DNA of 64,000 nucleotides from Sycon ciliatum (lineage: Eukaryota > Porifera > Calcarea > Leucosolenida > Sycettidae): positions 23,276,719-23,340,718 of the forward strand of contig NC_088649.1 in NCBI RefSeq assembly GCF_964019385.1. The letters run 5' to 3'. A program made the translations under genes and the position numbers. Positions 3,686 through 63,789 of this stretch are shown here, piece after piece; position 1 is the first letter of the stretch, and each line of letters begins with the position of its first letter. The notes beneath the pieces were generated by a model. That model made no database searches. It was not told the origin of the DNA and saw only the letters and a list, made by a program, of their open reading frames with translations.

Positions 3686-4055
3686 TTAACCCTAGAACAG
3701 CCAACGGTGTCATTTGACACCGCGCGAGTCAAACTTTTGGAATTACCGAAATATGGCTAATCAGAACAAGCTCAAATCTTGTGACTAATCCTAATTTTTC
3801 TTCCTCTTTCGTCTGCCATAAACCTTTGATTTGTAATTGATGAGGTACCATAATGGCGAGTACGTATACCTAGAACGGCCAACCAGTGTCATTTGACACC
3901 TGCACTATAAAAAGCCATTATTGCAGCTAGATGGAAACAATATGAACACATTTCGAAGGTGTCGACCATATGGAGTTGCTCGTATGCCAACCAGACAAAA
4001 GAAAGGTGCATGGGCAGGAAAATCGCTGAATACAGGACGAAATATATTATATATA

Positions 4056-4211
4056 TACTCAATCTGCGGACAGCATGCTGTTTCGTTCTTTGTGAACTCG
4101 TCAGCGCAGCACAGAGGAAATGAGGCCGAACCTGATAGCAATGGAAATAAAAATTTCCAATCAGGCCCGAACGTACCTTGCCAGAGTGCTCAAACTGACA
4201 AGTCAGTGAGC
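4056..4211 (-). mobile_element. partial retrozyme monomer, inverted orientation
   Basis: Reverse-complemented, this stretch matches about 160 bp of the 226-bp unit repeated at 6248-7197. It covers the conserved hairpin region and the ribozyme, and lacks the segment corresponding to about 6290-6360. It has diverged from the tandem copies, unlike those copies among themselves, so it is an older or different lineage of the same element. Confidence 0.8.
4064..4109 (-). ncRNA. type I hammerhead ribozyme, diverged retrozyme copy
   Basis: On the minus strand the order is stem I strand CTGCG, core CTGACGA (position 7 is variable in this ribozyme), stem II GTTC-ACAAA-GAAC, core GAAA, stem III CAGC-AT-GCTG, cleavage triplet GTC, and stem I return strand CGCAG. 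Relative to the tandem copies, stem II has changed C:G to U:A on both sides and stem III has gained a C:G pair. Such compensatory change supports selection for the fold. Cleavage is predicted 3' of the C at position 4069. Confidence 0.85.
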
Positions 4212-4285
4212 CCTGAACAATAGAACAATAGAAGTATTTCTTGCGTCTGCAAAAAAGTGCTCAATGTCCTAAGACAGAGCGGGGT

Positions 4286-4445
4286 TATACACTCAGACAC
4301 AAAGGATCTCCAAGTTTCTCAGTGTTGCTACTCTGAGTTTCGTGCAAAAGCACTCTTCAGGCAACCCCCCTGAAGAGTGCTTTTGCACGAAACTCAGAGT
4401 AGCAACACTGAGAAACTTGGAGATCCTTTGTGTCTGAGTGTATAT
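4286..4445. repeat. near-perfect palindrome carrying a hammerhead-like core on each strand
   Basis: Two arms of about 76 bp are separated by a cytosine-rich spacer of roughly 8 bases. Each arm reads CTGAAGA, stem GTGC-TTTT-GCAC, GAAA, then a CTCAG/CTGAG hairpin. This is the hammerhead order, but A replaces U at the base of stem III and there is no stem I. It sits beside the left terminal repeat of the Penelope-like element and resembles the palindrome on its other side. Confidence 0.6.
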
Positions 4446-4496
4446 ATATATATATATATATATTTATTTAAATAGAGATGTAGGCGAACAAAATTT

Positions 4497-4781
4497 ATAT
4501 ACACACAACAACAAGGTTGTCAATTTCATAATACTAAAAGCTTTTCACCCATTTTCATCAGTAGTTACATGGGAATGAGCAAGAACGAAAACGAAGCCAG
4601 AATTTATACTGGGGGTAGAGAATTAGCAAGAATATTCTTACGCGCCTCAAGTTCACACTACACTACCATAAGAATGTATGGAGCAGTGGAAAAATGCGGG
4701 AAACAACACATGAGGGGAATGCAGTACCAGAACAAACACGTAATAAAGTTGTCAGTCCGGTTGCAGCTTGAACAGCCATAG
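4497..4781. repeat. left inverted terminal repeat of the Penelope-like element
   Basis: It matches the reverse complement of 5611-5897 almost base for base. The two copies read in the same frame as 70-codon stretches differing at one residue, which suggests recent formation or conversion. The repeat also overlaps the last codons of the coding fragment. Confidence 0.8.
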
Positions 4782-5624
4782 CACCTTGATGTGCTTCTTT
4801 TGTCGACACAGCTCTGGCCTCAAACTGCGAATGTACAGCGCCTCCAGTGTGAATCTGTGCGCGCTGTTCCGGGCTGGTGTGATCACACTGAAGCTGCTGT
4901 TGCGTTCCTGCGGGATGCATTCAGGTTGCGCCTGCAAATGCTTTGTGATGGCGCTATCACTTGTTGCCACACGTTTGTCAGGCGGCTTCTTGTACAGCTT
5001 GTCTGGGATATGCTGCTTGATCCTTTCCGAGAATCGCTGACATGTCCCACCAACGTACGTCCGCTCACAGCGACACGCATACTTATAAATAAAATTACTG
5101 TTTTCAAGAGTTGGTGAAACATCCTTCGCGATAGACCTGAATGCGGGTCTGGTTGTATAAATTACAATGGGGGATACTGTAGGATAGCAGTTCAAAATTG
5201 CAGCTTTAATCTTTTTGCGGAAGGCAATGCAATTTTGCCCTTTCCACGGCAATTTTGTGATAATACGCGTTGCAGATTCAATTTGAGCAGAAGCTGTATC
5301 TGGGCTAGGTTCAAGAACGCTTGTCATGACTCGCTTGAGTACTTTGAGTGGGTAACCGTTAGAACACAGAATATCCTCTAGCTTAGCAATTTCAGCTGAT
5401 AATAGTGATGGTGAGCAGATGCTTTTAGCTCTGAAAGTTAATGATCTGATCAAATTGATTTTGTTTCTAGTGTCACAAAACGAGTCCCAGCGGGTGTAAA
5501 GACCTGTGAACGTCGGCTTTCTATATACTGTGGTGAGCAATTCTGTGGAAGAATGCTTAATCAATACATCAAGAAACGGCAATTCTCCATTATTCTCCTC
5601 CTCCAAGGTGCTACGGCTGTTCAA
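4752..5624 (-). CDS. Penelope-like retroelement C-terminal fragment (RT end plus GIY-YIG endonuclease)
   Basis: The 290-residue frame is open to a TGA stop at its 3' end. Residues about 16-45 (LPFLDVLI, TTVYRKPTFTGLY) are the end of a Penelope-type reverse transcriptase, found after the catalytic motifs in this group. Residues about 180-215 form a GIY-YIG nuclease core (FIYKYACRC, TYVGGT, then RFSERIKQH). In Penelope elements this nuclease nicks the target to prime reverse transcription. Fingers and palm, including the catalytic aspartates, are missing, because the frame runs straight into the inverted terminal repeat. The methionine is therefore only the first available one. The fragment cannot mobilise itself. 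Confidence 0.8.
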   Translation of the reverse strand: MNSRSTLEEENNGELPFLDVLIKHSSTELLTTVYRKPTFTGLYTRWDSFCDTRNKINLIRSLTFRAKSICSPSLLSAEIAKLEDILCSNGYPLKVLKRVMTSVLEPSPDTASAQIESATRIITKLPWKGQNCIAFRKKIKAAILNCYPTVSPIVIYTTRPAFRSIAKDVSPTLENSNFIYKYACRCERTYVGGTCQRFSERIKQHIPDKLYKKPPDKRVATSDSAITKHLQAQPECIPQERNSSFSVITPARNSAHRFTLEALYIRSLRPELCRQKKHIKVLWLFKLQPD

Positions 5625-5897
5625 GCTGCAACCGGACTGACAACTTTATCACGTGTTTGTTCTGGTACTGCATTCCCCTCATGTGTTGTTTCCCGCATTT
5701 TTCCACTGCTCCATACATTCTTATGGTAGTGTAGTGTGAACTTGAGGCGCGTAAGAATATTCTTGCTGATTCTCTACCCCCAGTATAAATTCTGGCTTCG
5801 TTTTCGTTCTTGCTCATTCCCATGTAACTACTGATGAAAATGGGTGAAAAGCTTTTAGTATTATGAAATTGACAACCTTGTTGTTGTGTGTATATAT
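5611..5897. repeat. right inverted terminal repeat of the Penelope-like element
   Basis: It is the inverted partner of 4497-4781. It ends in a TA microsatellite, as the left partner does. A CTGATGA followed eight bases later by GAAA occurs at about 5829-5847. It does not form a convincing stem II, so it is at best a decayed hammerhead. Confidence 0.75.
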
Positions 5898-5937
5898 ATA
5901 TATATATATACCCAATGCATATATATTATAATATATA

Positions 5938-6159
5938 CATGTCAACAAACAATGGATCACTCGTAATATTTCGCTACTCCGAGTTTCATGCACTGTGTGC
6001 AATCATCAGGCGAACAATATTCAACAATATTCAACAACAATATTCAACAACAATATTCAACAACAATATTCAACATAATTGTTCGCCTGATGATTGCACA
6101 CAGTGCATGAAACTCGGAGTAGCGAAATATTACGAGTGATCCATTGTTTGTTGACATGT
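5938..6159. repeat. palindrome with hammerhead-like core, right side of the Penelope-like element
   Basis: Arms of about 81 bp (5938-6018 and 6079-6159) flank a short array of TTCAACAACAATA-type repeats. Each arm encodes CTGATGA, a stem TGCAC-ACA-GTGCA, GAAA, and a CTCG/CGAG hairpin ending GTG. Three hammerhead parts are present. G at the cleavage position and the lack of a stem I argue against activity. Confidence 0.6.
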
Positions 6160-6466
6160 GTCATTGCTCCCCCCAAGAAATTGGATGTTGAGCACTTTTT
6201 CTGCAGCTACAGGCATAGTCTTACTAAGTATTATAATATATATATATGATGAGTCCACAAAGGACGAAACAGTTCTGTCCGCAGATTGAGTATTTCGCTC
6301 CTGCTCTTGTAGCAGTTGAGCACTCTTGCGTGGGGTAGTGCCTTTGCTGTTTGCTTTATGCAGAGCTCACTGACTTGTCAGTTTGAGCACTCTGGCAAGG
6401 TACGTTCGGGCCTGATTGGAAATTTTTATTTCCATTGCTATCAGGTTCGGCCTCATTTCCTCTGTG

Positions 6467-6510
6467 CTGCGCTGATGAGTCCACAAAGGACGAAACAGTT
6501 CTGTCCGCAG
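6467..6510 (+). ncRNA. type I hammerhead ribozyme, array copy 1
   Basis: Order: stem I strand CTGCG (6467-6471), core CTGATGA (6472-6478), stem II GTCC-ACAAA-GGAC, core GAAA, stem III CAG-TT-CTG, triplet GTC, stem I return CGCAG (6506-6510). Cleavage is predicted between 6505 and 6506. Stem I can extend past an internal loop through CTC/GAG. The very short stem III is typical of retrozyme and Penelope hammerheads, which often work better as dimers. Confidence 0.92.
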
Positions 6511-6692
6511 ATTGAGTATTTCGCTCCTGCTCTTGTAGCAGTTGAGCACTCTTGCGTGGGGTAGTGCCTTTGCTGTTTGCTTTATGCAGAGCTCACTGAC
6601 TTGTCAGTTTGAGCACTCTGGCAAGGTACGTTCGGGCCTGATTGGAAATTTTTATTTCCATTGCTATCAGGTTCGGCCTCATTTCCTCTGTG

Positions 6693-6736
6693 CTGCGCTG
6701 ATGAGTCCACAAAGGACGAAACAGTTCTGTCCGCAG
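6693..6736 (+). ncRNA. type I hammerhead ribozyme, array copy 2
   Basis: This copy is identical to the one at 6467-6510. Cleavage is predicted between 6731 and 6732. The distance to the previous site defines a 226-nt monomer. Confidence 0.92.
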
Positions 6737-6918
6737 ATTGAGTATTTCGCTCCTGCTCTTGTAGCAGTTGAGCACTCTTGCGTGGGGTAGTGCCTTTGCT
6801 GTTTGCTTTATGCAGAGCTCACTGACTTGTCAGTTTGAGCACTCTGGCAAGGTACGTTCGGGCCTGATTGGAAATTTTTATTTCCATTGCTATCAGGTTC
6901 GGCCTCATTTCCTCTGTG

Positions 6919-6962
6919 CTGCGCTGATGAGTCCACAAAGGACGAAACAGTTCTGTCCGCAG
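6919..6962 (+). ncRNA. type I hammerhead ribozyme, array copy 3
   Basis: This copy is identical to the previous ones. Cleavage is predicted between 6957 and 6958. Confidence 0.92.
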
Positions 6963-7144
6963 ATTGAGTATTTCGCTCCTGCTCTTGTAGCAGTTGAGCA
7001 CTCTTGCGTGGGGTAGTGCCTTTGCTGTTTGCTTTATGCAGAGCTCACTGACTTGTCAGTTTGAGCACTCTGGCAAGGTACGTTCGGGCCTGATTGGAAA
7101 TTTTTATTTCCATTGCTATCAGGTTCGGCCTCATTTCCTCTGTG

Positions 7145-7188
7145 CTGCGCTGATGAGTCCACAAAGGACGAAACAGTTCTGTCCGCAG
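7145..7188 (+). ncRNA. type I hammerhead ribozyme, array copy 4
   Basis: This is the last complete ribozyme, with cleavage predicted between 7183 and 7184. The array stops about nine bases later. The opposite end of the array (6248) begins inside the ribozyme core, without stem I, so the first copy cannot be active. Confidence 0.92.
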
Positions 7189-7240
7189 ATTGAGTATTAT
7201 AATATATATATATATATATACTCAATCTGCGGACAGATTG
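7181..7240. repeat. inverted repeat closing the retrozyme array
   Basis: The array end CTGTCCGCAGATTGAGTAT is followed by a TA microsatellite and then by its own reverse complement. A scrap of retrozyme in the opposite orientation therefore abuts the array. Confidence 0.7.
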
Positions 7241-7462
7241 GACAAATATATATATATATATATTTTTTTTACTAAGGCCACAGCTTCCAATCATGACATG
7301 CAAAGCAGCGTTGCAGCATCGCAGGCATGAATCGTGGACGTGGTGACGGGGTCTGATGTGCTCCACCGACCTAGGGTCTCGGCTTCACTGCACAGCAAAC
7401 GCGTCGAAAGAAAATGGGGGCTAATAATTATCGGGAGATGGGGGGGGGGAGAAAAAGAGAAG

Positions 7463-13232: not shown

Positions 13233-13622
13233 CTGAAGTTGGTTGCTCCAACGAGGAGCACACGCTTCTTGCCGAATTTGACACTTGACTGACTTACGAC
13301 TGCCATCCGGAGCACACGAGGAGCACGTCGCACCTTCCGCTCGGTAAACCTGAAAGAAAGCACCACTCCCTTCTCAATACACAGTGTTTCGGAGAATTCA
13401 CCCCTCATCAGTTGAGCTTGAATAGGCTGAGGAAGATTGTGCCTGAAAAGCACCACTTATATACTGCTCTCCAGGCCAAACCATCACCAGGGATACAAAC
13501 TTACAGAGACGCTTTGTTTCCAGCGAGACAAACACCTCGTGAAGCCCCAGGTAGCAGCGTGAGTCAGAGTCGCTCATGGAGTTGTGCTAAACAGACGTTG
13601 AGACGTTGAGACGTTCTAAGTT
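13233..13622 (-). mobile_element. 390-bp HHR-carrying retroposed insertion with 13-bp target duplication
   Basis: The LINE sequence CAAATTGAATAAC is present on both sides (13220-13232 and 13623-13635). Removing one copy and the insert restores the reverse transcriptase reading VIQFADD. On the minus strand the insert starts with ACGTCTCA-type repeats, has a TATATAA box near 13457, then a hammerhead ribozyme, then about 140 bp of unique sequence. A second copy lies at 35640-35868 and a relic at 3268-3410. It encodes no protein. It is either a retrozyme-like element or the HHR-bearing terminal part of a Penelope-like element. Confidence 0.75.
13373..13416 (-). ncRNA. hammerhead ribozyme, second family, GUA cleavage site
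   Basis: On the minus strand: stem I CTCAA, core CTGATGA, stem II GGGG-TGAATT-CTCC (one G-U wobble), core GAAA, short stem III CA-CTG-TG, triplet GTA, stem I return TTGAG. Cleavage is predicted between 13378 and 13377. Every constant core base is present. Confidence 0.82.
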
Positions 13623-19530: not shown

Positions 19531-19857
19531 ATGTGCTTGCTGTTGAGGTTACGCCTGTCCATATTTTGGCCGTACAAGAGGTTTGCGTACGCTAAAACAA
19601 GTGGACATGCTAAACAATAATAATTGTATTCTCGCCTTTCATACCGTCAAATACAAACACTGTCCCCGTTTCGCGTCAAGTTAATTGTTAGCGCCTACAT
19701 TGGTGTATGCTATCACCCTCCTTATCTCTTACTTTGGTTCCCTATACTAGTTCAATTGTGTTGTAATGTCCTTTAATGCAGCGTAGCTACAAAGTATCAG
19801 TGAAGATCTATTCAGTGTGAAGTGAAACATATAAGCTGTTCACTACTCAGTCTCACT

Positions 19858-19876
19858 GCTGCTCCTTCTATTCAGC
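19858..19876 (+). promoter_or_regulatory. probable 3' splice site just upstream of the kelch start codon
   Basis: A pyrimidine-rich tract ends CCTTCTATTCAG, followed by CCAGCCATG. It is conserved in front of all kelch copies, including 30361-30380 and 37026-37045. This suggests an intron in the 5' UTR whose acceptor lies 5 bases before the ATG. The donor was not identified. Confidence 0.5.
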
Positions 19877-19881
19877 CAGCC

Positions 19882-21120
19882 ATGTCTGTTCGTGTGTGGA
19901 GGAACCCCTTCCAAATGTGCGTGGAAACGGAAGATCCGTGGATCATGAGGACTAGTTGCATAGTCGACTCGACGATCTACACATTGGGTGGTTGCCCTTG
20001 CGTTAGTCCGGAGGGAATTCTTCAGTGCATAAATATACCACCGCTGAAGCCTCGTTGTCCACATGATCCAGACCCGGAAAATGACTTCAAATCAGTACAA
20101 ATCAAATATCAGCCAGGATGGTTATTGACCGATCTTAACCCGCTCCAAGTACGTTTTGGCGCAGCTGCTGCAGTTGGTTCTGACATTTTTTACATCGGAG
20201 GATTTGGAAACCGGACCTTCCATAATACCGTCGCCCATCTGAATCCAAGTACGCGGACCGTTTCCCAGGTGAACATCCTCGGCAGTTCGCCGACACCAAA
20301 GTCGAACGTTGGTATGTGTTCCAATGTGAAATTGAAAGAATGCTATTTGTTTGGTGGACTTGGGGAGCGTCCCTCGCAAACTAAGGGCGTAAAAACCCCA
20401 GCATCATACCTGGAAACAATAAAAGACGCATATGTAAACAACGCAGTACATGTGCTGGACACAAGAGATTATGCTAGTACTGGAAACTGTACATGGTCAG
20501 AAATGATGTGTATTGGAAACGCTCCAGACCCAAGATTTGGTTCTGCGTTCACCAATCACGACAACTTCGCATACGTCTTTGGCGGAGCTTGCAATTCGAC
20601 TGAGGAATTAAAAAATGATCTTCATCGATTAAATTTGCGGTCAGCAGAGTGGAGTGGTGCTCTGCCGGTGACTGGAGAGCTGCCTTCAGAGCGATGCTAT
20701 GCTTCTTTGGCCCCGAGCTCGACGTCCTTACTGGTTCTCTGTGGTGGTAGTGGAACGAACCGGAGTTGCCGCAATGACATTTTCATCTTTCATACTGACT
20801 TACTATGCTGGTATGGCGTGAACACCTCACACATCCAGCCACCTTTGGAGGTACGGTGGGAACATTTCTCATGCCAGGATCTCATGGGTGACGTGTATAT
20901 TGTAGGAGGTTCCAAGTCGACCCACAATCAAAATCTAGCAACGACAATCGTCAGAGTACGTACGGAACCGCCGTCCTTACAGAATCTTGCTTTGCAGGTG
21001 TATGCCGGCATCGCGACTTCAGAAGACGTGGAAAGCTTGGGAGTCCTGTGTCGCAGCGTTTTGCGTAAGATTCGAACGCATCCATGCACTAGCTGCAGTC
21101 CCCAACATGCGTGGAAGTAG
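19882..21120 (+). CDS. kelch-repeat beta-propeller protein, copy B (intact)
   Basis: A 412-residue protein starting MSVRVWRN. The frame is open 20 codons further upstream, but there is no ATG there and the stretch looks like an intron end. Six kelch blades end in di-glycine motifs at about residues 36-37, 106-107, 158-159, 234-235, 288-289 and 342-343, with the usual inter-blade tryptophans (for example SAEWSGAL). Kelch propellers bind partner proteins, often as substrate receptors of cullin ubiquitin ligases. The tail (365-396, SLQNLALQVYAG and beyond) loosely fits a BC box with Ala in place of Cys. No signal peptide or membrane segment is seen. It is one of five tandem paralogues. A LINE lies upstream and a 6.6-kb TTAA element starts 17 bp downstream of the stop. 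Confidence 0.82.
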   Translation: MSVRVWRNPFQMCVETEDPWIMRTSCIVDSTIYTLGGCPCVSPEGILQCINIPPLKPRCPHDPDPENDFKSVQIKYQPGWLLTDLNPLQVRFGAAAAVGSDIFYIGGFGNRTFHNTVAHLNPSTRTVSQVNILGSSPTPKSNVGMCSNVKLKECYLFGGLGERPSQTKGVKTPASYLETIKDAYVNNAVHVLDTRDYASTGNCTWSEMMCIGNAPDPRFGSAFTNHDNFAYVFGGACNSTEELKNDLHRLNLRSAEWSGALPVTGELPSERCYASLAPSSTSLLVLCGGSGTNRSCRNDIFIFHTDLLCWYGVNTSHIQPPLEVRWEHFSCQDLMGDVYIVGGSKSTHNQNLATTIVRVRTEPPSLQNLALQVYAGIATSEDVESLGVLCRSVLRKIRTHPCTSCSPQHAWK

Positions 21121-29993: not shown

Positions 29994-30385
29994 GTACGGG
30001 GCAGGTCAAGAACAAGGAGTCGTATAACTCCCTGGTCAAGAGCCACCTTTGCGCTTCCGTGGGACGCCACCACCCCATGATCAGGCGTCAGATGCGGCGC
30101 CTACACAAATAGACATGGTAAACAATTGTATATTCTCGCCTTTCACACCGTGAAATACAGACTCTGTCCCTGTGTCGGTTCAAGTTAATTGTTAGCACCT
30201 ACATTGGTGTATGCTATCACCCTCATTATCTCTTACTTTGGTTTCCTATAATAGTTCAATTGTGTATTAATGTACTTTAGTGCAGCGTAGCTACAAAGTA
30301 TCAGTGAAGATCTAGTCAGTGTGAAGTGAAACATATAAGCTGTTCGCTACTCAGTCTCACTGCTGCTCTTTCTATTCAGCCAGCC

Positions 30386-31788
30386 ATGTCTGTTCGTGTG
30401 TGGAGGAACCTCTTCCAAATGTGCGTGGAAACGGAACATCAGTGGATCATGAGGGTTAGTTGCATAGTCGACTCGACGATCTACACATTGGGTGGGTGCC
30501 CTTGCGTTAGTCCAGAGGGAGTTATTCAGTGCATACAGGTACCATCGTTAAAGCCTCGTTGTCGACATGATCCAGACCCGGAAAATGACTTCAAATCAGT
30601 GCAAATCGAATACCAGCCAGCATGGCTATTAGCCGATTCTACCCAGCTTTACCTCAGTGGTGGTGCAGCTGCTGCCGTCGGTTCTGATATTTTCTACTTT
30701 GGAGGATTTCAAGGAATATATGGAAACCAAACCTATCAAAATACCGTCGCCCTTCTGAATCCAAGTTCGCGGACCGTTTCCCAGGTGAACATTCTCGGCC
30801 GTTCGCCGACACCAAAGTCGAACGTTGGTATGTGTTCCAATGTGGAATTGAAAGAATGCTATGTGTTTGGTGGAGTTGGGGAGCGTCCCTCGCAAACTAA
30901 GGGCGTTCAAACCCCAGCATCATACCTGGAAGTAATTCCCGGGAGATATATAAACAACGCAGTACATGTGCTGAACACAAGAGATTATGCTAGTAATGAA
31001 AGCTGTACGTGGAGAGAGATGCTGTACGCTGGTGAAGCTCCAGACCCTAGATATGGCTCTGCGTTCGCCAGTCGAGACAACATAGCATACGTCTTTGACG
31101 GAGCTTGCAATTCCACTGAGGAATTCAAAGATGATCTTCATCGATTAAATTTGGAATTGGCGGAGTGGAGTGGTGCTTTGCCAGTGACTGGAGAACTGCC
31201 TGAAGAGCGAAGTGCTGCTTCTTTGGCCCCGAGCTCGACGTCCTTACTGGTCCTCTGCGGTGGTTTGTTTTACAATGACACGAGCTGAAGTTACCTCTAT
31301 GACATTTTCATCTTTCACACTGACTTAGTACGGGCAGGCACAGTGGGTTGGTCAAAGACCATGATTGAGATACGAGAGGTACCTGGTTCAAGTCCTGCCT
31401 GGGAGCGGTTTTTCCAGCCGTGCTGCTACCCACAGTCAACTGGGAACTTGTGGTCAGGCACAAGGGGTACATGGATGCAGCTAATGGTGTCGTTTTCGGC
31501 ACTTGTGCCAGTGGTTGTGAGACTTACCCACTCACCCCCACCGTTAGGCGCTGCATCTGCCGCTAGGGTTTACCGGGTCGCAAATCGCCCAACAATAACA
31601 ATCAAGCAACGACGATCGTCAGAGTGCGTACGGAACCGCTGTCCTTAGAGAATCTTGCTTTGCAGGTGGTTGCGGGCATAGCGACTTCAGAAGAAGTTGA
31701 AAGCTTGAGAGTCCTGTTACGCAGCCGTGTGCGTAAGATTCGAACGCAGCCATGCAGTACCTGCAGTCCCCCTCACGCCTGTAAGTAG
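30386..31788 (+). pseudogene. kelch-repeat gene copy C, broken
   Basis: The frame is open from MSVRVWRNLF for 300 codons, through the fifth blade, then meets a TGA at 31286-31288 in VLCGGLFYNDTS. About 40 bases further on, homology is replaced by a tRNA-derived insertion (about 31328-31600), which also removed the sixth blade. The tail resumes at about 31603 and ends at a TAG at 31786-31788, with changes such as FDGA for the GG motif of blade four. If translated it would give a truncated five-blade protein. The 5' part still looks well kept, so the loss may be recent. Confidence 0.8.
31328..31600 (+). mobile_element. tRNA-derived SINE-like insertion in kelch copy C
   Basis: An A-box-like AGTGGGTTGGTCAAAG (about 31350) and a B-box GGTTCAAGTCC (about 31388) are correctly spaced for a tRNA-type RNA polymerase III promoter. 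They are followed by about 200 bp of unrelated body ending in CAACAATAACAAT. The tRNA-like piece at 52955-53035 has a similar head. Confidence 0.65.
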
Positions 31789-35639: not shown

Positions 35640-35868
35640 GCTATTCCGCCGACTTTACTTGACACTTGACTGACTCACGACTGCCATCCAGAGCACACGA
35701 GAAGTCCATCGAACCTTCGACTCGGCAAACCTGCAAGAAAGCACCACTCCCTGCTCAATACACAGTGTTTCGGGGAATTCACCCCTCATCAGTTGAGCTT
35801 GAGTAGGCTGAGGAAGATTGTGCCTGAAGAGCACCACTTATATAGTGCTCTCCAGGCACAAACATGGC
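35640..35868 (-). mobile_element. second copy of the HHR-carrying retroposed element
   Basis: About 210 bp are shared with 13268-13478, including the TATATA box, the ribozyme and the downstream region. As at the first site, the neighbour is a LINE in the same orientation. Exact ends could not be set. Confidence 0.7.
35754..35797 (-). ncRNA. hammerhead ribozyme, second family, copy 2
   Basis: On the minus strand: stem I CTCAA, CTGATGA, stem II GGGG-TGAATT-CCCC (fully Watson-Crick), GAAA, stem III CA-CTG-TG, GTA, stem I return TTGAG. Compared with 13373-13416 the single stem II change (CTCC to CCCC) keeps pairing. Cleavage is predicted between 35759 and 35758. Confidence 0.85.
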
Positions 35869-36005: not shown

Positions 36006-37051
36006 GACTGTTATACAGGTTAGACCTTGTTGGTAGTTAATCACTGGACCTTCAAGGCAAGAGGAAGATTCGATCATTCCCAAACGTTACGCCCTTGCTC
36101 CCCCCCCCCCTGCGCCGTCGAGAATTCCAGGACGTTTCACTGATTCAGTTATAAATCGCTGGAAAGTTTGGTGCAAGGTCTGATCGCTACGTACAGTTGA
36201 CAGAATAGCACCCTTGCCAACACGCAGCGCCACCTTGCAAATAGTGTCTGAAATATCGCTCTGTATCTTTCAGCATCCTTATATAATTATATGTATTACA
36301 CCATCTCAAGACTTGGTGGAAACACAGGTCAATCCATGCGCCTTGTGTACGGCTCCGGCTTTCCTCAGGCCATTTTCCCAAGCAGGATTTGGTGAAATTT
36401 GCGTGAGATTTGAATCCGGACTGGTGCTACTGGCGTAGGGACCATGGTGAGAGGCCAGTATGCTATCCATACAGATCTACCCTCTCCCTGGCGCTCGTGA
36501 AGCAAGCTGTCATGCAACTAGTAATAGTAAACATAACAACCAGATCGAAGGTGAGCATAATTATACAAGATCAGGGTGCCTCCTGAGGTTTCCACACTTG
36601 CCTGTGCTGAAAGCCACGTTTACACTTCAAAGTGGACTGCTTGATGGCGACATCCCTTTACACGAGATTGCTGCGCATGCATTGTCACCAAGACCGTTAC
36701 AGATAACAAAAGCCAGACAAACAAATATTAACTGTCGGGGTAGGACGAATGGCCCTGGGCTGTTCATTCTACAAGTAGACACGATGAACGATAATACTCT
36801 CGCCTTTCATACCTCATACTACAGACCCTCTGTCGCTTTGTCGCTCCAAGTTAATTGTTAGCGCCTACATTGGTGTATGCTGTCACCCTCATTATCTCAT
36901 ACTTTGATTTCGTATAATAGTTCAATTGTGTTGTAATGTCCTTTAGTGCAGCGTAGCTACAAAGTATCAGTGAAGATCTAGTCAGTGTGAAGTGAAACAT
37001 ATAAGCTGTTCACTACTCAGTCTCACTGCTGCTCCTTCTATTCAGCCAGCC
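36006..37051. repeat. kelch-unit flank between copies C and D
   Basis: No gene is seen. 36006-36560 matches 838-1445, and 36575-37050 is the upstream flank of copy D, including the conserved pyrimidine tract and AG before the ATG. Confidence 0.6.
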
Positions 37052-38308
37052 ATGTCTGTTCGGGCGTGGAGGAACCCTGGCCAATCGGCAAAGGAACGTC
37101 CATGGGAAGTGAGGACTAGTTGCATAGTCGACTCGACGATCTACACATTGGTCGGTTCCCCTTGGATGGGTCAGGAGGGAGAACTTCAGTGCATACGGGT
37201 ACCATCGTTAACGCCTCGTTGTCCACATGATCCAGACCCGGAAAGTGACATCAAACCAGTGCTAATCGAATACCAGCCAACATCCTTATTAACCAATCCT
37301 AACCCGCTTCACGTACATGCTGGCGCAGCTGCTGCCGTCGGTTCTGATATTTTCTACTTCGGAGGATCTCTCGGATTATATCATGGAAACGTAACCTACC
37401 AAAATACCGTCGCCCATCTGAATCCAAGTACGCGGACCTTTTCCCTGGTTAACATTCTCGGCAGTTCGCCGACACCGAAGTCTAACGTTGGTATGTGTTC
37501 CAATGAGAAATTGAAAGAATGCTATGTGTTTGGTGGACTTGGGGAGCGTCCCTCGCTAACTAAGGGCGTAAAAACCCCAGCATCATACCTGGAAACAATA
37601 ACCGGCGGATATGTAAACAACGCAGTACATGTGCTGGACACAAGAGATTTTGCTAGTACTGGAAACTGTACATGGTCAGAGATGATGTGCACTGGAAACG
37701 CTCCAGACCCAAGATTTGCTTCTGCGTTCACCAATCGCGACAACTTCGCATACGTCTTTGGCGGAGATTGCAATTCCATGAAATTAAGAAATGATCTTCA
37801 TCGATTAAATTTGCGGTCAGCGGAGTGGAGTGGTGCTCTACCGGTGACTGGAGAGCTGCCTTCAGAGCGATGCTATGCTTCTTTGGCCCCGAGCTCGACG
37901 TCCTTACTTGTTCTCTGTGGTGGTGCGTGGTACAATGGAACGAACTTGAGTTGCCGCAATGACATTTTCATCTTTCACACTGATTTACTATGCTGGTATG
38001 GCGTGTACACCTCACACATCCAGCCACTTTTGGAACCATGGTGGGGACATTACTCATGCCAGGATCTCATGGGTGACGTGTATATTGTAGGAGGTTCAAT
38101 CCACTCAATCCACAATCAAAATCTAGCAACGACGATTGTCAGAGTACGTACGGAACCGCCGTCCTTACAGAATCTTGCTTTGCAGGTGTATGCCGGCATC
38201 GCTACTTCAGAAGACGTGGAAAGCTTGGGAGTCCTGTTTCGCAGCGTTTTGCGTAAGATTCGAACGCAGCCATGCAGTAGCTGCAATCCCCCTCACGCCT
38301 GGAAGTAG
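37052..38308 (+). CDS. kelch-repeat beta-propeller protein, copy D (intact)
   Basis: A 418-residue open frame starting MSVRAWRNPG, the same start as copy B, behind the same conserved acceptor-like sequence. It has six kelch blades, with loop differences from copy B (FGGSLGLYHGN in blade two, CGGAWYNGTN in blade five, VGGSIHSIHN in blade six). The first blade is altered, with TLVGSPW replacing the GG motif. The leucine-rich tail is conserved. Substitutions cluster in inter-blade loops, the usual ligand face of a propeller, which may mean divergence in binding. Role by family is protein binding, possibly as a ubiquitin-ligase substrate receptor; this is inference. Confidence 0.82.
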   Translation: MSVRAWRNPGQSAKERPWEVRTSCIVDSTIYTLVGSPWMGQEGELQCIRVPSLTPRCPHDPDPESDIKPVLIEYQPTSLLTNPNPLHVHAGAAAAVGSDIFYFGGSLGLYHGNVTYQNTVAHLNPSTRTFSLVNILGSSPTPKSNVGMCSNEKLKECYVFGGLGERPSLTKGVKTPASYLETITGGYVNNAVHVLDTRDFASTGNCTWSEMMCTGNAPDPRFASAFTNRDNFAYVFGGDCNSMKLRNDLHRLNLRSAEWSGALPVTGELPSERCYASLAPSSTSLLVLCGGAWYNGTNLSCRNDIFIFHTDLLCWYGVYTSHIQPLLEPWWGHYSCQDLMGDVYIVGGSIHSIHNQNLATTIVRVRTEPPSLQNLALQVYAGIATSEDVESLGVLFRSVLRKIRTQPCSSCNPPHAWK

Positions 38309-43802: not shown

Positions 43803-45066
43803 CCAGCCATATATGTTCGTGTGTGGAGTAACCCCTTCCAAATGTGCGTGGAAACGGAACATCCGTGGATCATGAGTGCTAGATACATAGTTGACTCGAC
43901 GATCTGCACATTGGGTGGTTGTCCTTGGATTAATCCGGAGGGAATTCTTCAGTGCATAAATATACCACCTTTGAAGCCTCGTTGTCCACATGATCCAGAC
44001 TTCAAAATGACTTCAAATCAGTGCAAATCAAATATCAGCCAGCATGGTTATTGACCGATCTTAACCCGCTCCAAGTACGTTGTGGCGCAGCTGCTGCAGT
44101 TGGTAATGACATTTTCTACTTCGGAGGACGTCATGGACCATTTGGAAACCGGACCTTCCATAATACCGGCGCCCATCTGAATCCAAGTACGCGGACCGTT
44201 TCCCAGGTGAACATCCTCGGCAGTTCGCCGACACCGAAGGCGAACGTTGGTATGTGTTCCAATGTGAAATTGAAGGAGTGCTATGTGTTTGTTGGAGTTG
44301 GGGAGCGTCCCTCGCAAACTGAGGGCGTTCAAACCCCAGCGTCTTACCTGGAAATGATAACGGGGATATATGTAAACAACGCAGTACATGTGCTGAACAC
44401 AAGAGTTTATGCCAGTACTGGAAGTTGTACATGGCGAGAGATGCTGTACACTGGTGACGCACCAGACCCTAGATATGGCTCTGCGTCCACCAATCGCGAC
44501 AACTTCGCATTCGTCTTTAGTGGAGCTTGCAATTCCACTTTGGAATTAAAAAAAGATTTTTATCGATGAAATTTGCAATCGGCGGAGTGGAGTGGTGCTT
44601 TGCCAGTGACCGGAGAACTGCCTCCAGAGCGATGCTATGCTTCTTTGGCCCCGAGCTCGACGTCCTTACTGGTTCTCTGTGGTGGTTTCTGGCACAATGG
44701 AACGAACCTGAGTTACCGCAATGACCATTTCATCTTTCATACTGACTTACTATGCTGGTATGGCGTGAACACGTCACACATCCAGCCACCATTGGAAACA
44801 CGGTGTGGACATTACTCATGCCAGGATCTCATGGTTAACGTGTATATTGTAGGAGGTTACAAGTCGATCCACAATCACAAACTAGCAACGATGGTCATCA
44901 GAGCACGTACGGAACCGCCGTCCTTACAGAATCTTGCTTTGCAGGTGTATGCCGGCATAGCGACTTCAGAAGACGTGGAAAGCTTGAGAGTCCTGTTTTG
45001 CAGCGTTTTGTGTAAGATTCGAACGCAGCCATGCAGTAGCTGCAATCCCCTCACGCCTGGAAGTAG
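43803..45066 (+). pseudogene. kelch-repeat gene copy E, broken
   Basis: The usual ATG is mutated (CCATATATGTT where B has CCATGTCTGTT). A single-base deletion near 43999, in the DPDPEND region, shifts the frame. A TGA replaces a leucine codon at 44567-44569 (LHRLNL in copy B). A further one-base loss near 45050 alters the last codons before the usual TAG. All six blades can still be traced, including YFGG-, VFVGVGE-, VFSGA-, CGGF- and VGGY-type motifs, some with the glycines already lost. The accumulation of four kinds of lesion indicates an older inactivation than in copy C. Confidence 0.85.
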
Positions 45067-45182
45067 TCATGGTATTGAATGATGTATACATTTTGCCTAT
45101 TCCACTGCTAGGAACGCTGCTGGGGGTTCGTCGGCCTAGCTTTCTAAACAAATCTGACTTTTCTTTCACTCACTCACCTACT

Positions 45183-49299: not shown

Positions 49300-52219
49300 C
49301 CTTAATCAGGCCAATGTTCCCAAAAGGGAACATGTTTTTCTTCTTTGTATTTGAGGTAGTAATTTTTCGTTTTTCTGCACTATTTTTGTTTCTATGCATA
49401 ACTGGAAGCTTGCTGATCATGAATAACAAAGTACTTGGTGGGTTTCAGAATTTTTCAAATTCCTCAATATTAGACCAAATGGCGGTAATTCTTGGTATTC
49501 GTATGAACGTTAGAAATGTTCACTATTGATGTGGAAAACAGCTTTTTTCAGGGCAAACCCTATATGAGATGTGATCCCCGGTCCTTTGGCAATACAACTG
49601 GCCTAAAAAATCAAGAGAAATTTGGTAATATTACATAAACACCCTGCGTCTTTCTTTGATGTTCCCAAAAGGGAACGTTGGCCGGATTCGATACCCAAAT
49701 GTACCCTATTATGGTAAGTTCTCTGGAATCAAGCCATGCCCACATATCCCTTGTCTGAAGTATTCAGGAAGGTGAATATAACCGGAATGGAGACTTTTCA
49801 AGTTTATATGGTGCCTTGAAAATCTCCATGGCAACCATAATTTTGTCGAACGGCTATTTAGCAATGCGTGGAATGACCCGAGGAGTCGCCTCCAAGGGGG
49901 TTGATTCGGCACCGATCGATACAAAGTCCCTAAGTTATTTTGTTTTGTCTTTTTCGAAACTAGAACCACTCGTTCAATAGACGTTACAAATTACAGAGGC
50001 TTCATGCATTCATCCTGATCCGTTGCTGCTTTTCCCGCGCGCGGTTGAATTTTTGTCAAAAAATAGCGTATTATTTGTAGTAAGGTATGGCTGATGGAGC
50101 TTTCTACGGGAGGAGAGTCCTTCCTAAAAGGACATCCAGAATAGTTACACTGCTGGAAGCTGAGGAAGCTGTTGAGAACTCAGATCAACCTGAGAACCTG
50201 GTCATTTTGCCGCTGAGCACTGGTGACGCAAATGTCGATAGCGATGTTGAGGACGGGCGTGATGATTTACTGGATGACGACCATATCATGGAACCTGCAG
50301 GAGAGATGGAGCTAGATGAGTACGAGTCTGAGGATGAAGATTATGAAGTTCATGGGTCTGATGATAGCGAGGATGAGGGTAGTGGTGAGCCTGCGGCAAA
50401 GCGGACACCCGCGGGTGCGACACGCTGGATGAAGAGGACTGCTTTCGACACCATCCTTCCTGAAATGGAACTGCCCTCATTTATTGACGATCATCCTGAA
50501 CTTATAACGGCGTCGCCTATGGATCTCTGGCGGGGAATATACACACCTGCACTGATCGAGAAGATTGTAGATCAATCATTACTGTATGCAGCACGGGAAA
50601 AAAACAACGACAGCTTCGGCTTGGAGGCAGTAGATCTGGAGAGATTTCTAGGAATCCTTCTTCTTTCTGGTTACCACACTTTGCCAACTGAGAGCGACTA
50701 TTGGTCAACGCAACCAGACCTCGGAGTACCACTTGTACAAACAGCGATGAGCCGTAACCGATTCCGATCGATCAAACAATACCTTCACTTTGTGGACAAC
50801 CAAGCTCTACAAGAAGGAAATAAAATGGCAAAGGTGGCTCCGCTATATGATAGCCTCAACGAGCAGCTGGTAAAGTGGAACATCTTCCATCCTCTGCTGA
50901 GTATCGACGAGTCGATGGTCCCATATTTTGGCAAACACAGTGCGAAGATGTTCATAAAGGGGAAGCCCATCCGGTTCGGCTACAAAATTTGGTGTTTATG
51001 TGGAAGTGATGGATTCCCGTACCACTTGCAAATTTACACCGGTCGCCAGGAAGGCAGGCCAGTGAGTCCACTGGGCCTGAGAGTGGTTGGCGACATGGTC
51101 GATGTAATTCGAGTCCACTCCGACACCCGCTGCCACGAGTTATTCTTCGACAATTTCTTCACCAGCTACAGCCTTTTGGAAATCCTGGCCGAGAAAAACA
51201 TGCGTGCAGTCGGTACTGTTCGGGACAACCGCACTGGAGGTGCTAACCAGCGTTTGGTCTCAACAAAAGAGCTCAAGAAGAAGGCCCGAGGCACATTTGA
51301 TTACCGCTGCAACGGAACCGTGTTCATCTGCAAGTGGAATGACAATTCTGTCGTGAATGCCGCCAGCAACTATGCCACACACGAGCCCCTTGCAACTGTG
51401 AAAAGGAGGGTGAAGAATGTGTCTAACACCACTGTCACCCAGCCACATCTCATCCAACTCTATAACAAGGGAATGGGCGGTGTGGATCTTTTCGATCGGC
51501 TCCTGGGTTCTTATCGCCCACGCATCTCCGGCAAGAAGTGGTACTGGGCATTATTTGTCAACCACCTGAATGCGACCGTTGTAGCTGCTTGGCGTCTGCA
51601 CTGCAAGGTTCACGAGAAGCCTATGTCCCACATCGAGTTTCGTCGTGAGATCACCGTCAGTTTGTTGAAAACCGACCTTCGCCCCGAACCACGAGTATCC
51701 GGACTTCCGGTGGATGTGAGATATGATGGCGTCGGACACACAAGAGAGTCGACAACCCAAGGTCGTTGTAAGGTTTGCAAGCGAAACACGAGATGCAAAT
51801 GCTCCAAGTGTGGTGTTCGGCTGCATTTCGATCATGGTGCCAACTGCAACGAGTTGTATCACACACGCTAGGTCGAGATCCGCAGCCATGATCCGCCAAG
51901 TAGCATCTATGGGCACTCCGTGAAGACAATCTCATGATTTCTATCTTCACTACTATTGTTTTATGTTTGCATTGCTCCACAAAAGCTTTCGCAGCAAAAT
52001 AATTCATTTTAATCTGCCGTATAAACCTCGCATAAAAATCAGGGTGATTTTGGTACCCGATCCGGCCAACGTTCCCTTTTGGGAACATATACATATTTCC
52101 ATAACGCCTTGTCATATTTAGATCAAACTTATAGACATTCTTAATTGGTTCAATACAGTCCAAGATAACCAAAAAAAGTTCTGACAATTGAATGATTTCT
52201 GGTGTTGGCCAAATTAAGG
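49300..52219 (+). mobile_element. complete piggyBac-type transposon
   Basis: TTAA target copies at 49296-49299 and 52220-52223. Ends CCTTAATCAGGCCAATG and, reverse-complemented, CCTTAATTTGGCCAACACC. Inner inverted repeats around GGGAACGTTGGCCGGAT lie at about 49672-49688 and 52058-52078, with the palindrome GTTCCCAAAAGGGAAC on both sides. One intact transposase gene lies between. This is a structurally autonomous element of 2.9 kb. Confidence 0.9.
50087..51871 (+). CDS. piggyBac transposase
   Basis: A 594-residue open frame; the ATG has purines at -3 and +4. Residues 1-115 are acidic and disordered-looking (runs of DDH, ESEDED, DDSEDEG), as in piggyBac N-termini. The DDE core follows, with aspartates at about D274 (SIDESMVPYFG), D355 (LFFDNFFTSY) and D467 (KGMGGVDLFD). 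The C-terminus (about 560-594) is a cysteine-rich zinc-binding domain (RCKVCKRNTRCKCSKCG, then H and C residues) that recognises terminal repeats. Length matches the family. The enzyme excises and inserts its element at TTAA without leaving a footprint. No stop or frameshift is present, so it may be active. It is also possible that such a copy is being co-opted, but its intact termini argue for a mobile element. Confidence 0.93.
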   Translation: MADGAFYGRRVLPKRTSRIVTLLEAEEAVENSDQPENLVILPLSTGDANVDSDVEDGRDDLLDDDHIMEPAGEMELDEYESEDEDYEVHGSDDSEDEGSGEPAAKRTPAGATRWMKRTAFDTILPEMELPSFIDDHPELITASPMDLWRGIYTPALIEKIVDQSLLYAAREKNNDSFGLEAVDLERFLGILLLSGYHTLPTESDYWSTQPDLGVPLVQTAMSRNRFRSIKQYLHFVDNQALQEGNKMAKVAPLYDSLNEQLVKWNIFHPLLSIDESMVPYFGKHSAKMFIKGKPIRFGYKIWCLCGSDGFPYHLQIYTGRQEGRPVSPLGLRVVGDMVDVIRVHSDTRCHELFFDNFFTSYSLLEILAEKNMRAVGTVRDNRTGGANQRLVSTKELKKKARGTFDYRCNGTVFICKWNDNSVVNAASNYATHEPLATVKRRVKNVSNTTVTQPHLIQLYNKGMGGVDLFDRLLGSYRPRISGKKWYWALFVNHLNATVVAAWRLHCKVHEKPMSHIEFRREITVSLLKTDLRPEPRVSGLPVDVRYDGVGHTRESTTQGRCKVCKRNTRCKCSKCGVRLHFDHGANCNELYHTR

Positions 52220-63746: not shown

Positions 63747-63789
63747 CCTCCAGACAGCTGTTCGCTCCTCCTGAGCTCATCAGTGGAGG
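63747..63789 (-). ncRNA. near-complete hammerhead ribozyme
   Basis: On the minus strand: stem I CCTCCA, core CTGATGA, stem II GCTC-AGGAG-GAGC, then GAA (one A short of the usual GAAA), CAG-CTG, triplet GTC, stem I return TGGAGG. Three stems pair fully. The missing A at the base of stem III makes activity doubtful. Confidence 0.5.

Follow-up and report, generated by a model that had tools for sequence, protein, structure and literature searches.

The window, a 64,000-nt stretch of the Sycon ciliatum genome (NC_088649.1, positions 23,276,719 to 23,340,718), carries at 6247-7196 (+) a tandem array of 4.2 units of 226 bp that is very probably a retrozyme. The array starts inside a hammerhead core (TGATGAG) and ends ...GATTGAGTA. 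TRF calls the repeat at 6247-7198 (period 226, 4.2 copies, 100% matches, 0% indels); since this match extends into the flank by chance, the insert proper is set at 6247-7196. An earlier, sequence-only reading had placed the array at 6248..7197. The array is real, and both of these coordinates are one base too high. That reading saw no differences between units, which is exact for the four full units.

Five hammerhead motifs are spaced 226 bp apart within the array. The first (6247-6279, +) has no 5′ strand for stem I and scores 32.3 bits with a purpose-built model, made on 19 hammerheads drawn from three retrozyme families. The other four (6460-6518, 6686-6744, 6912-6970, and 7138-7196, all +) are complete type I hammerheads with predicted cleavage between 6505 and 6506, 6731 and 6732, 6957 and 6958, and 7183 and 7184, the last of these cuts lying 13 nt before the end of the insert. 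The purpose-built model gives 77 bits (E 4.1e-22) for each complete motif, which is only a consistency check since one of its 19 hammerheads is the window unit. RF00163 (type I hammerhead) matches the complete motifs with 28.2 bits (6466-6511, 6692-6737, 6918-6963, and 7144-7189) and the incomplete first motif, at 6240-6293, with 23.9 bits. All of these lie below its gathering score of 34, and an Rfam scan of the window at gathering thresholds therefore returned no match. A genome search with RF00008 also gave no match, and its control was not detected either. Neither result shows absence.

The GUC cleavage triplet is found at 6503-6505 and recurs every 226 bp. Stem III consists of three pairs and a fourth, G-C, that would enclose only two U, making a 3-bp stem with a GUUC loop more likely. 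The internal loop of stem I is closed by CUC/GAG, and the terminal loop of stem II is ACAAA; these two are the candidate partners for the loop 1-loop 2 tertiary contact of metazoan retrozymes. The analysis bears out what had been read from the letters, namely five cores of which four are complete, a GUC triplet, and a very short stem III; a covariance-model scan, proposed at the same time, matches every unit of the array, with RF00163 below its gathering score. No frame of at least 120 aa overlaps 6247-7196 (frames were listed from 120 aa up), and no LTRs were seen on reading the array sequence. Folded as a 226-nt circle, the unit reaches -73.9 kcal/mol (z -2.55, 100 shuffles). The full hammerhead is absent from this lowest-energy fold, and forcing it costs ~5 kcal/mol, such that the ribozyme could, on paper, form in the circle.

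Across a TA tract from the array, in tail-to-tail orientation, lies a 20-nt antisense piece of the unit (unit 28-47; 7218-7237, -). A single partial unit of a diverged subfamily is found at 4055-4215 (-; 95.7% over 161 bp); its hammerhead at 4056-4116 scores 81 bits and features a GUUC/GAAC stem II and a longer stem III. Two pieces of a Penelope-like element (PLE) lie head-to-head. The first (4752-5645, -) is a 297-aa frame that corresponds to the C-terminal portion of an open frame of 843 codons present elsewhere, and the second (approximately 5604-5899, +) is 5′-truncated. The two overlap by inverted similarity, and the second ends at the first PLE 3′ site, followed by a TA tract. By eye, a minimal-hammerhead-like sequence lies in the PLE start codon region (4527-4571, -) and again in the second piece (5821-5865, +); the stretch of locus L046 equivalent to 4527-4571 gave no Rfam hammerhead match. 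The sequence-only reading is silent on these facing PLE pieces, on the diverged partial unit, and on two long palindromes.

These palindromes (4275-4473 and 5938-6160) adjoin TA tracts and carry core-like sequence on each strand. The centre of the first (4316-4406) contains hammerhead-like cores at 4324-4361 (-) and 4369-4406 (+), and the 19-hammerhead model matches it at 4316-4374 (-) with 19.6 bits (E 0.0017). The cores of the second, seen by eye at 5970-6010 (-) and 6086-6126 (+), gave no match to this model. Further hammerhead elements, copied head-to-head, may account for both palindromes. The many matches to microRNAs at 7171-7264 and 4308-4422 are palindromes scoring far under the cut-offs and were judged to be chance. 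Farther along the window, another hammerhead-like motif occurs in two non-tandem copies (35752-35797 and 13371-13416, both -), and a motif at 63748-63788 (-) has the core GAAC instead of the model's GAAAC (23.7 bits). Similar long frames on the forward strand, kelch-like by eye, lie at 19804-21120, 30308-31288, 36974-38308, and 43994-45082, and a 595-aa frame at 50084-51871 (+) resembles, by eye, a PiggyBac-type transposase.

The PLE frame has at least 132 matches in the genome, and in some of these all 843 codons are open. RVT_1 is matched (E 1.4e-10) within the N-terminal 557 aa of one such intact copy; the window piece at 4752-5645 gave no RVT_1 match. A search of solved-structure sequences yielded a single weak match to a reverse transcriptase (E 0.0086) for the N-terminal part and none for the C-terminal part. 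A GIY-YIG motif is seen by eye only, and there was no Pfam match for the PLE endonuclease (GIY-YIG). Sequence around the PLE ATG is repeated after the ORF, a pseudo-LTR feature. Among 72 PLE 3′ ends, 35 lie at the first site, 32 at the tail site, 4 run into the ORF, and 1 is unclear; the two sites, both downstream of the start codon, resemble the optional PLE ‘tail’ (PMC3846280; PMC11167929). The first site is farther from the hammerhead-like sequence of the PLE than the retrozyme end is from its hammerhead, and it cannot be placed to the exact base because the copies read lie mostly at TA tracts. PLE/PLE junctions are direct head-to-head joins in 38 of 63 cases, an arrangement already described as the commonest in rotifer Penelope (PMC3846280).

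Retrozyme families and uniformity of arrays

A search of the 538-Mb assembly with the unit, a check that the sequence-only reading had suggested, gives at least 203 matches to the window's unit A (40 of 142 candidates scored). Arrays elsewhere contain about 1 to 25 units, with ~25 at L091. Two further families were first met in PLE loci: family C, with a unit of 237 bp and at least 140 matches (40 of 1248 candidates scored), and family D, with a unit of 239 bp and at least 116 matches (40 of 445 candidates scored). Identity over gapped columns is 64% between A and C, 65% between A and D, and 74% between C and D. GC content is 48.7% in unit A, 53.2% in C, and 48.1% in D, with 45.8% in the window. 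A family D piece also recurs, often ~1.76 kb apart, at C10:29.30-29.43 Mb within a larger satellite-like array.

Each unit of families A and C contains two copies of a box, TTGAGCACT (in the window at 6316-6324, 6383-6391, and their repeats), and each unit of family D contains one as such. The same box is found beside both palindromes (4185-4193 and 4256-4264, both -, and 6188-6196) and is not present in the PLE copy searched. It is possibly a promoter or protein-binding element. Candidate Pol III boxes, picked out by eye, were dropped because a run of five T lies between them.

Units are more alike within arrays than between them. Across 144 full units from 47 arrays, the mean difference is 0.78 within arrays versus 3.64 between, and identical unit pairs make up 360/463 of the comparisons within and 1396/9833 of those between. 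Among the arrays with at least three full units, 11 of 18 are internally identical, where label shuffles gave at most 4 (1000 shuffles), and five of these 11 have a haplotype found in no other array. The array-averaged within-array statistic is weak (2.64 versus a shuffled mean of 3.52 and minimum of 2.29). The remaining 7 of the 18 larger arrays vary internally, and clearly different units are mixed in L001, L061, L069, and L081. One template per array would account for most of the larger arrays. The haplotype of the window array occurs in five other arrays, which, along with the zero differences among its units, is consistent with the recent insertion that had been proposed.

Compensatory changes in stems I and II are seen across families A, C, and D. 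They were scored in 19 hammerheads, hand-chosen out of 51 distinct ones found, which fall into few related groups and hence represent few independent changes. In this alignment 94.4% of cells pair, compared with at most 40.5% when slid; 24 cells are changed on both sides, and the covariation score of 0.279 is equalled by 0/500 shuffles. Two other measures do not exceed the shuffles and so lend covariation no support: the number of pairs changed on both sides (5) is not above shuffles (212/500 as high), and further pair types are below most of them (496/500 as high). Stem III contributes nothing, as three of its five pairs are invariant and the other two vary one-sidedly.

Insertion ends and target sites

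The 3′ ends of the arrays fall at nearly one point of the unit. In a sample of 63 family A array pieces, 61 have uncut 3′ ends, and 55 of these end at unit 45-48, three at 49, one at 50, and two at 226; the last two come from L091, where the unit is interrupted, and from L086, where the piece lies at the locus edge. With predicted cleavage after unit 33, A arrays end 13 nt past the cut, a point 2 nt beyond the CUC/GAG pairs at the outer end of stem I. In family C, all 14 loci that were fetched stop at the corresponding position (14 nt beyond the cut), and in family D 9 of 11 fetched loci stop at the position corresponding to that of A; these loci were picked from listings, mostly as those with a listed terminal piece. 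Hand counts among the matches listed were made without such picking. For family C, 39 of 42 terminal pieces end at 49-53 and three at 45. For family D, 39 pieces were counted among the matches listed, 16 of them in one repeated C10 cluster, where 13 end at 52 and three are exceptions; outside this cluster, 18 of 23 end at 49-55 and five elsewhere. The bases that follow the array end vary between loci, which indicates that target homology does not set the 3′ end. Primer pairing with the RNA sequence UAU was considered as the cause of the fixed end and rejected, given that the same end is found without homology (L023, GGGTTC). Copying passed across the cleavage site, so the template was continuous at that position, either as a circle or as an uncut multimer.

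The 5′ starts of family A are scattered from unit 1 to 206. Unit 110-111 is where seven A pieces begin; among the fetched loci, starts ~18-46 nt upstream of the hammerhead core are seen in 7 of 14 for C and 5 of 11 for D. Such recurrent starts in all three families mean that the 5′ ends may not be random.

The window array is flanked by a target site duplication (TSD) of 19 nt, TATTATAATATATATATAT, identified by eye. The left copy occupies 6229-6247, its last base overlapping the insert, and the right copy 7195-7213, its first two bases TA being common to the insert end. Both flanks contain the motif TATTATAATA, and this part of TATTATAATATATATATAT, not being plain TA repeat, makes the TSD credible. 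In family A as a whole, 53 pieces have both flanks, and 30 of them, excluded from the TSD count, lie in TA tracts; these 30 are not all independent, as tail-to-tail pieces have one TA tract in common. As a background taken from the window alone, TA tracts cover 10 of 60,600 bp in its remainder. The 23 non-TA pieces have a mean TSD of 10.7 bp versus 2.6 for shuffled flanks (maximum 4.0 in 300 shuffles); several of these TSDs lie in simple repeats (e.g., L063 and L089) and are longer for it. A TSD of at least 4 bp is present in 21 of the 23; none was found for L080 or for L031, the diverged unit at 4055-4215 of the window. For families C and D, 18 arrays give a mean of 9.4 versus 2.2 shuffled, with at least 4 bp in 17. 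This set omits 7 of 25 loci (L034, L096, L099, L100, L101, L114, and L116), whose ends fall within TA tracts or which border PLE sequence or other units. In the left flank of L107, a run of C, resembling an untemplated addition, separates a family C array from its apparent TSD.

Some retrozyme copies are in direct contact with PLE sequence. At L034, a family D array is joined to a 41-nt PLE piece adjoining a facing PLE copy, and at L096 a family C array runs directly into a PLE tail, with no TA tract between them. These fusions could be template jumps, and nested insertion or rearrangement could also explain both. Clean mixed PLE/retrozyme head-to-head pairs, looked for as proof of PLE action, were not found, with one case having a TA tract between the two. 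No sequence common to PLE and retrozyme ends was seen beyond a few bases. PLE copies are mostly head-to-head, in contrast to the single retrozyme arrays with TSDs in non-TA targets, and thus insertion of the two is not identical.

Proposed cycle and alternative explanations

The insertion scars point to target-primed reverse transcription (TPRT) that begins at a fixed internal site and proceeds around a circle or along a joined multimer. We regard the window array, with high confidence, as a metazoan non-LTR retrozyme, non-autonomous and inserted by TPRT. The retrozyme identity proposed from the letters gains support from the tandem type I hammerheads, the many dispersed arrays, and the TSDs, and further from the nearly fixed 3′ boundary, the homogeneous arrays, and the presence of a PLE in the genome. 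A retrozyme cycle served by a PLE-type enzyme is, as a whole, the explanation that we consider probable. In such a cycle, the array would be transcribed and its hammerheads would cut the transcript into 226-nt monomers, which a host RNA ligase would close into circles; a 226-nt circular RNA from this locus, predicted by the sequence-only reading, would be the product. Primed at a nick in the target, often an AT-rich one, a reverse transcriptase would then begin copying at a single fixed position on the circle, located 13 nt beyond the cleavage/ligation site and 2 nt beyond the base of stem I, and would circle the template several times before stopping at varying places. Of this cycle, cleavage, ligation, circularity, and the PLE origin of the enzyme are inferred.

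That the PLE is the machine that moves the retrozyme seems somewhat more plausible than not. This link depends on three parallels, namely a fixed internal start, TA targets, and close physical nesting; it is independent of common sequence, and the two elements differ in pairing habit. A more speculative reading, which we hold only tentatively, is that the folded hammerhead of the closed circle serves as a landing pad for a Penelope-type protein that starts at the foot of stem I. If so, the ribozyme would both cut the transcript and mark the start of reverse transcription, which would explain why hammerheads are kept in retrozymes and PLEs alike, and the L034 and L096 fusions would be template jumps between two RNAs in one complex.

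Several alternatives bear on parts of this cycle. The repeats could be an ordinary satellite grown in place by unequal crossing over, in which the hammerhead no longer acts. Identical tandem units, the array of ~25 units at L091, and the family D units ~1.76 kb apart at C10:29.3-29.4 Mb, like a larger satellite, would fit such an origin, yet the short arrays are dispersed, carry TSDs, and have one usual 3′ boundary in unrelated targets, and compensatory changes keep the hammerhead pairs, all of which makes a satellite very improbable. It is even harder to credit that the array is a 3′ extension (pseudo-LTR) of the neighbouring PLE and not an independent element. Within the window, as at several PLE loci, units do adjoin PLE 3′ ends; however, 20 of 22 loci with non-TA pieces have no PLE in flanks of ~0.2 to 1.5 kb, TSDs accompany 21 of 23 pieces, and a TA tract usually lies between PLE and units. 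Isolated arrays with TSDs (L021, L068, L077, L087, and L088) led to rejection of the array as part of a PLE.

The template and the enzyme allow more latitude. An uncleaved linear multimer, for which self-cleavage would be dispensable for insertion, is in keeping with the mixed unit types of some arrays and with the finding that PLE hammerhead mutants still insert in vitro (PMC11167929). Against it, 11 of 18 arrays are identical, five with a private haplotype, for which a circle is the simplest explanation, though a multimer copied off one array could equally give identical units; we consider this template rather unlikely. Mobilisation by a LINE-type element in place of the PLE is also unlikely, if less so. 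LINEs produce TSDs of similar length too, and several ORFs in the window were named by eye as RT and endonuclease-like. On the other hand, neither a poly-A nor a short-repeat tail is seen at ends in non-TA targets, copying starts within the unit whatever the target, and TA-tract targets are used as they are by the PLE.

Relation to known systems

The retrozyme itself is of a known kind, and what is added here is its insertion anatomy. Metazoan non-LTR retrozymes have units of ~225 and 245 bp in Acropora millepora (Cervera and de la Pena, 2020; PMC7229834) and ~350-390 bp in mussels (PMC7229834). Tandem units of ~150-450 bp, from dimers to multimers, characterize this group, and the window array has 4.2 units of 226 bp; low GC is put at <45% in a figure legend and at <50% in the text. 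Shared with these elements are tandem units of a few hundred bp, type I hammerheads, TSDs of more than 4 bp, and PLEs in the genome (PMC7229834), a likeness of architecture. SMα of schistosomes, which is SINE-like, is likewise a short non-coding hammerhead repeat, as judged by its description (PMC8490949).

The insertion scars bear on how animal retrozymes return to DNA. According to a 2020 review, retrozyme repeats have no conserved motif that reveals which autonomous element moves them (PMC7761336). The accessible text of PMC7229834 contains no description of a fixed 3′ insertion point, and no report of a fixed RT start beside the hammerhead of retrozymes was found among titles and abstract openings in the open-access literature.

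For the insertion anatomy, parallels come from PLEs. Poseidon of Anolis (PMC11167929) and Penelope of Adineta vaga (PMC3846280) resemble the retrozyme in their fixed internal RT starts downstream of the hammerhead, and starts that are not homologous to the target, as well as AT-rich targets, are common to both kinds of element (PMC11167929; PMC3846280). Some rotifer PLE copies have TSDs of 8-10 bp (PMC3846280), and the PLE protein initiates inside its RNA at sites unmatched to the cut DNA and extends both DNA strands (PMC11167929). Unlike the PLE, which encodes a protein, the retrozyme is non-coding, has a hammerhead with stem III, and forms multi-unit arrays that end 2 nt past stem I. In three families, the scars point to the base at which copying would begin, beside the hammerhead, as published for a PLE. 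This turns the question of mobilisation into a test-tube assay, and a Penelope-like start just beyond the ribozyme hints at how retrozymes jump.
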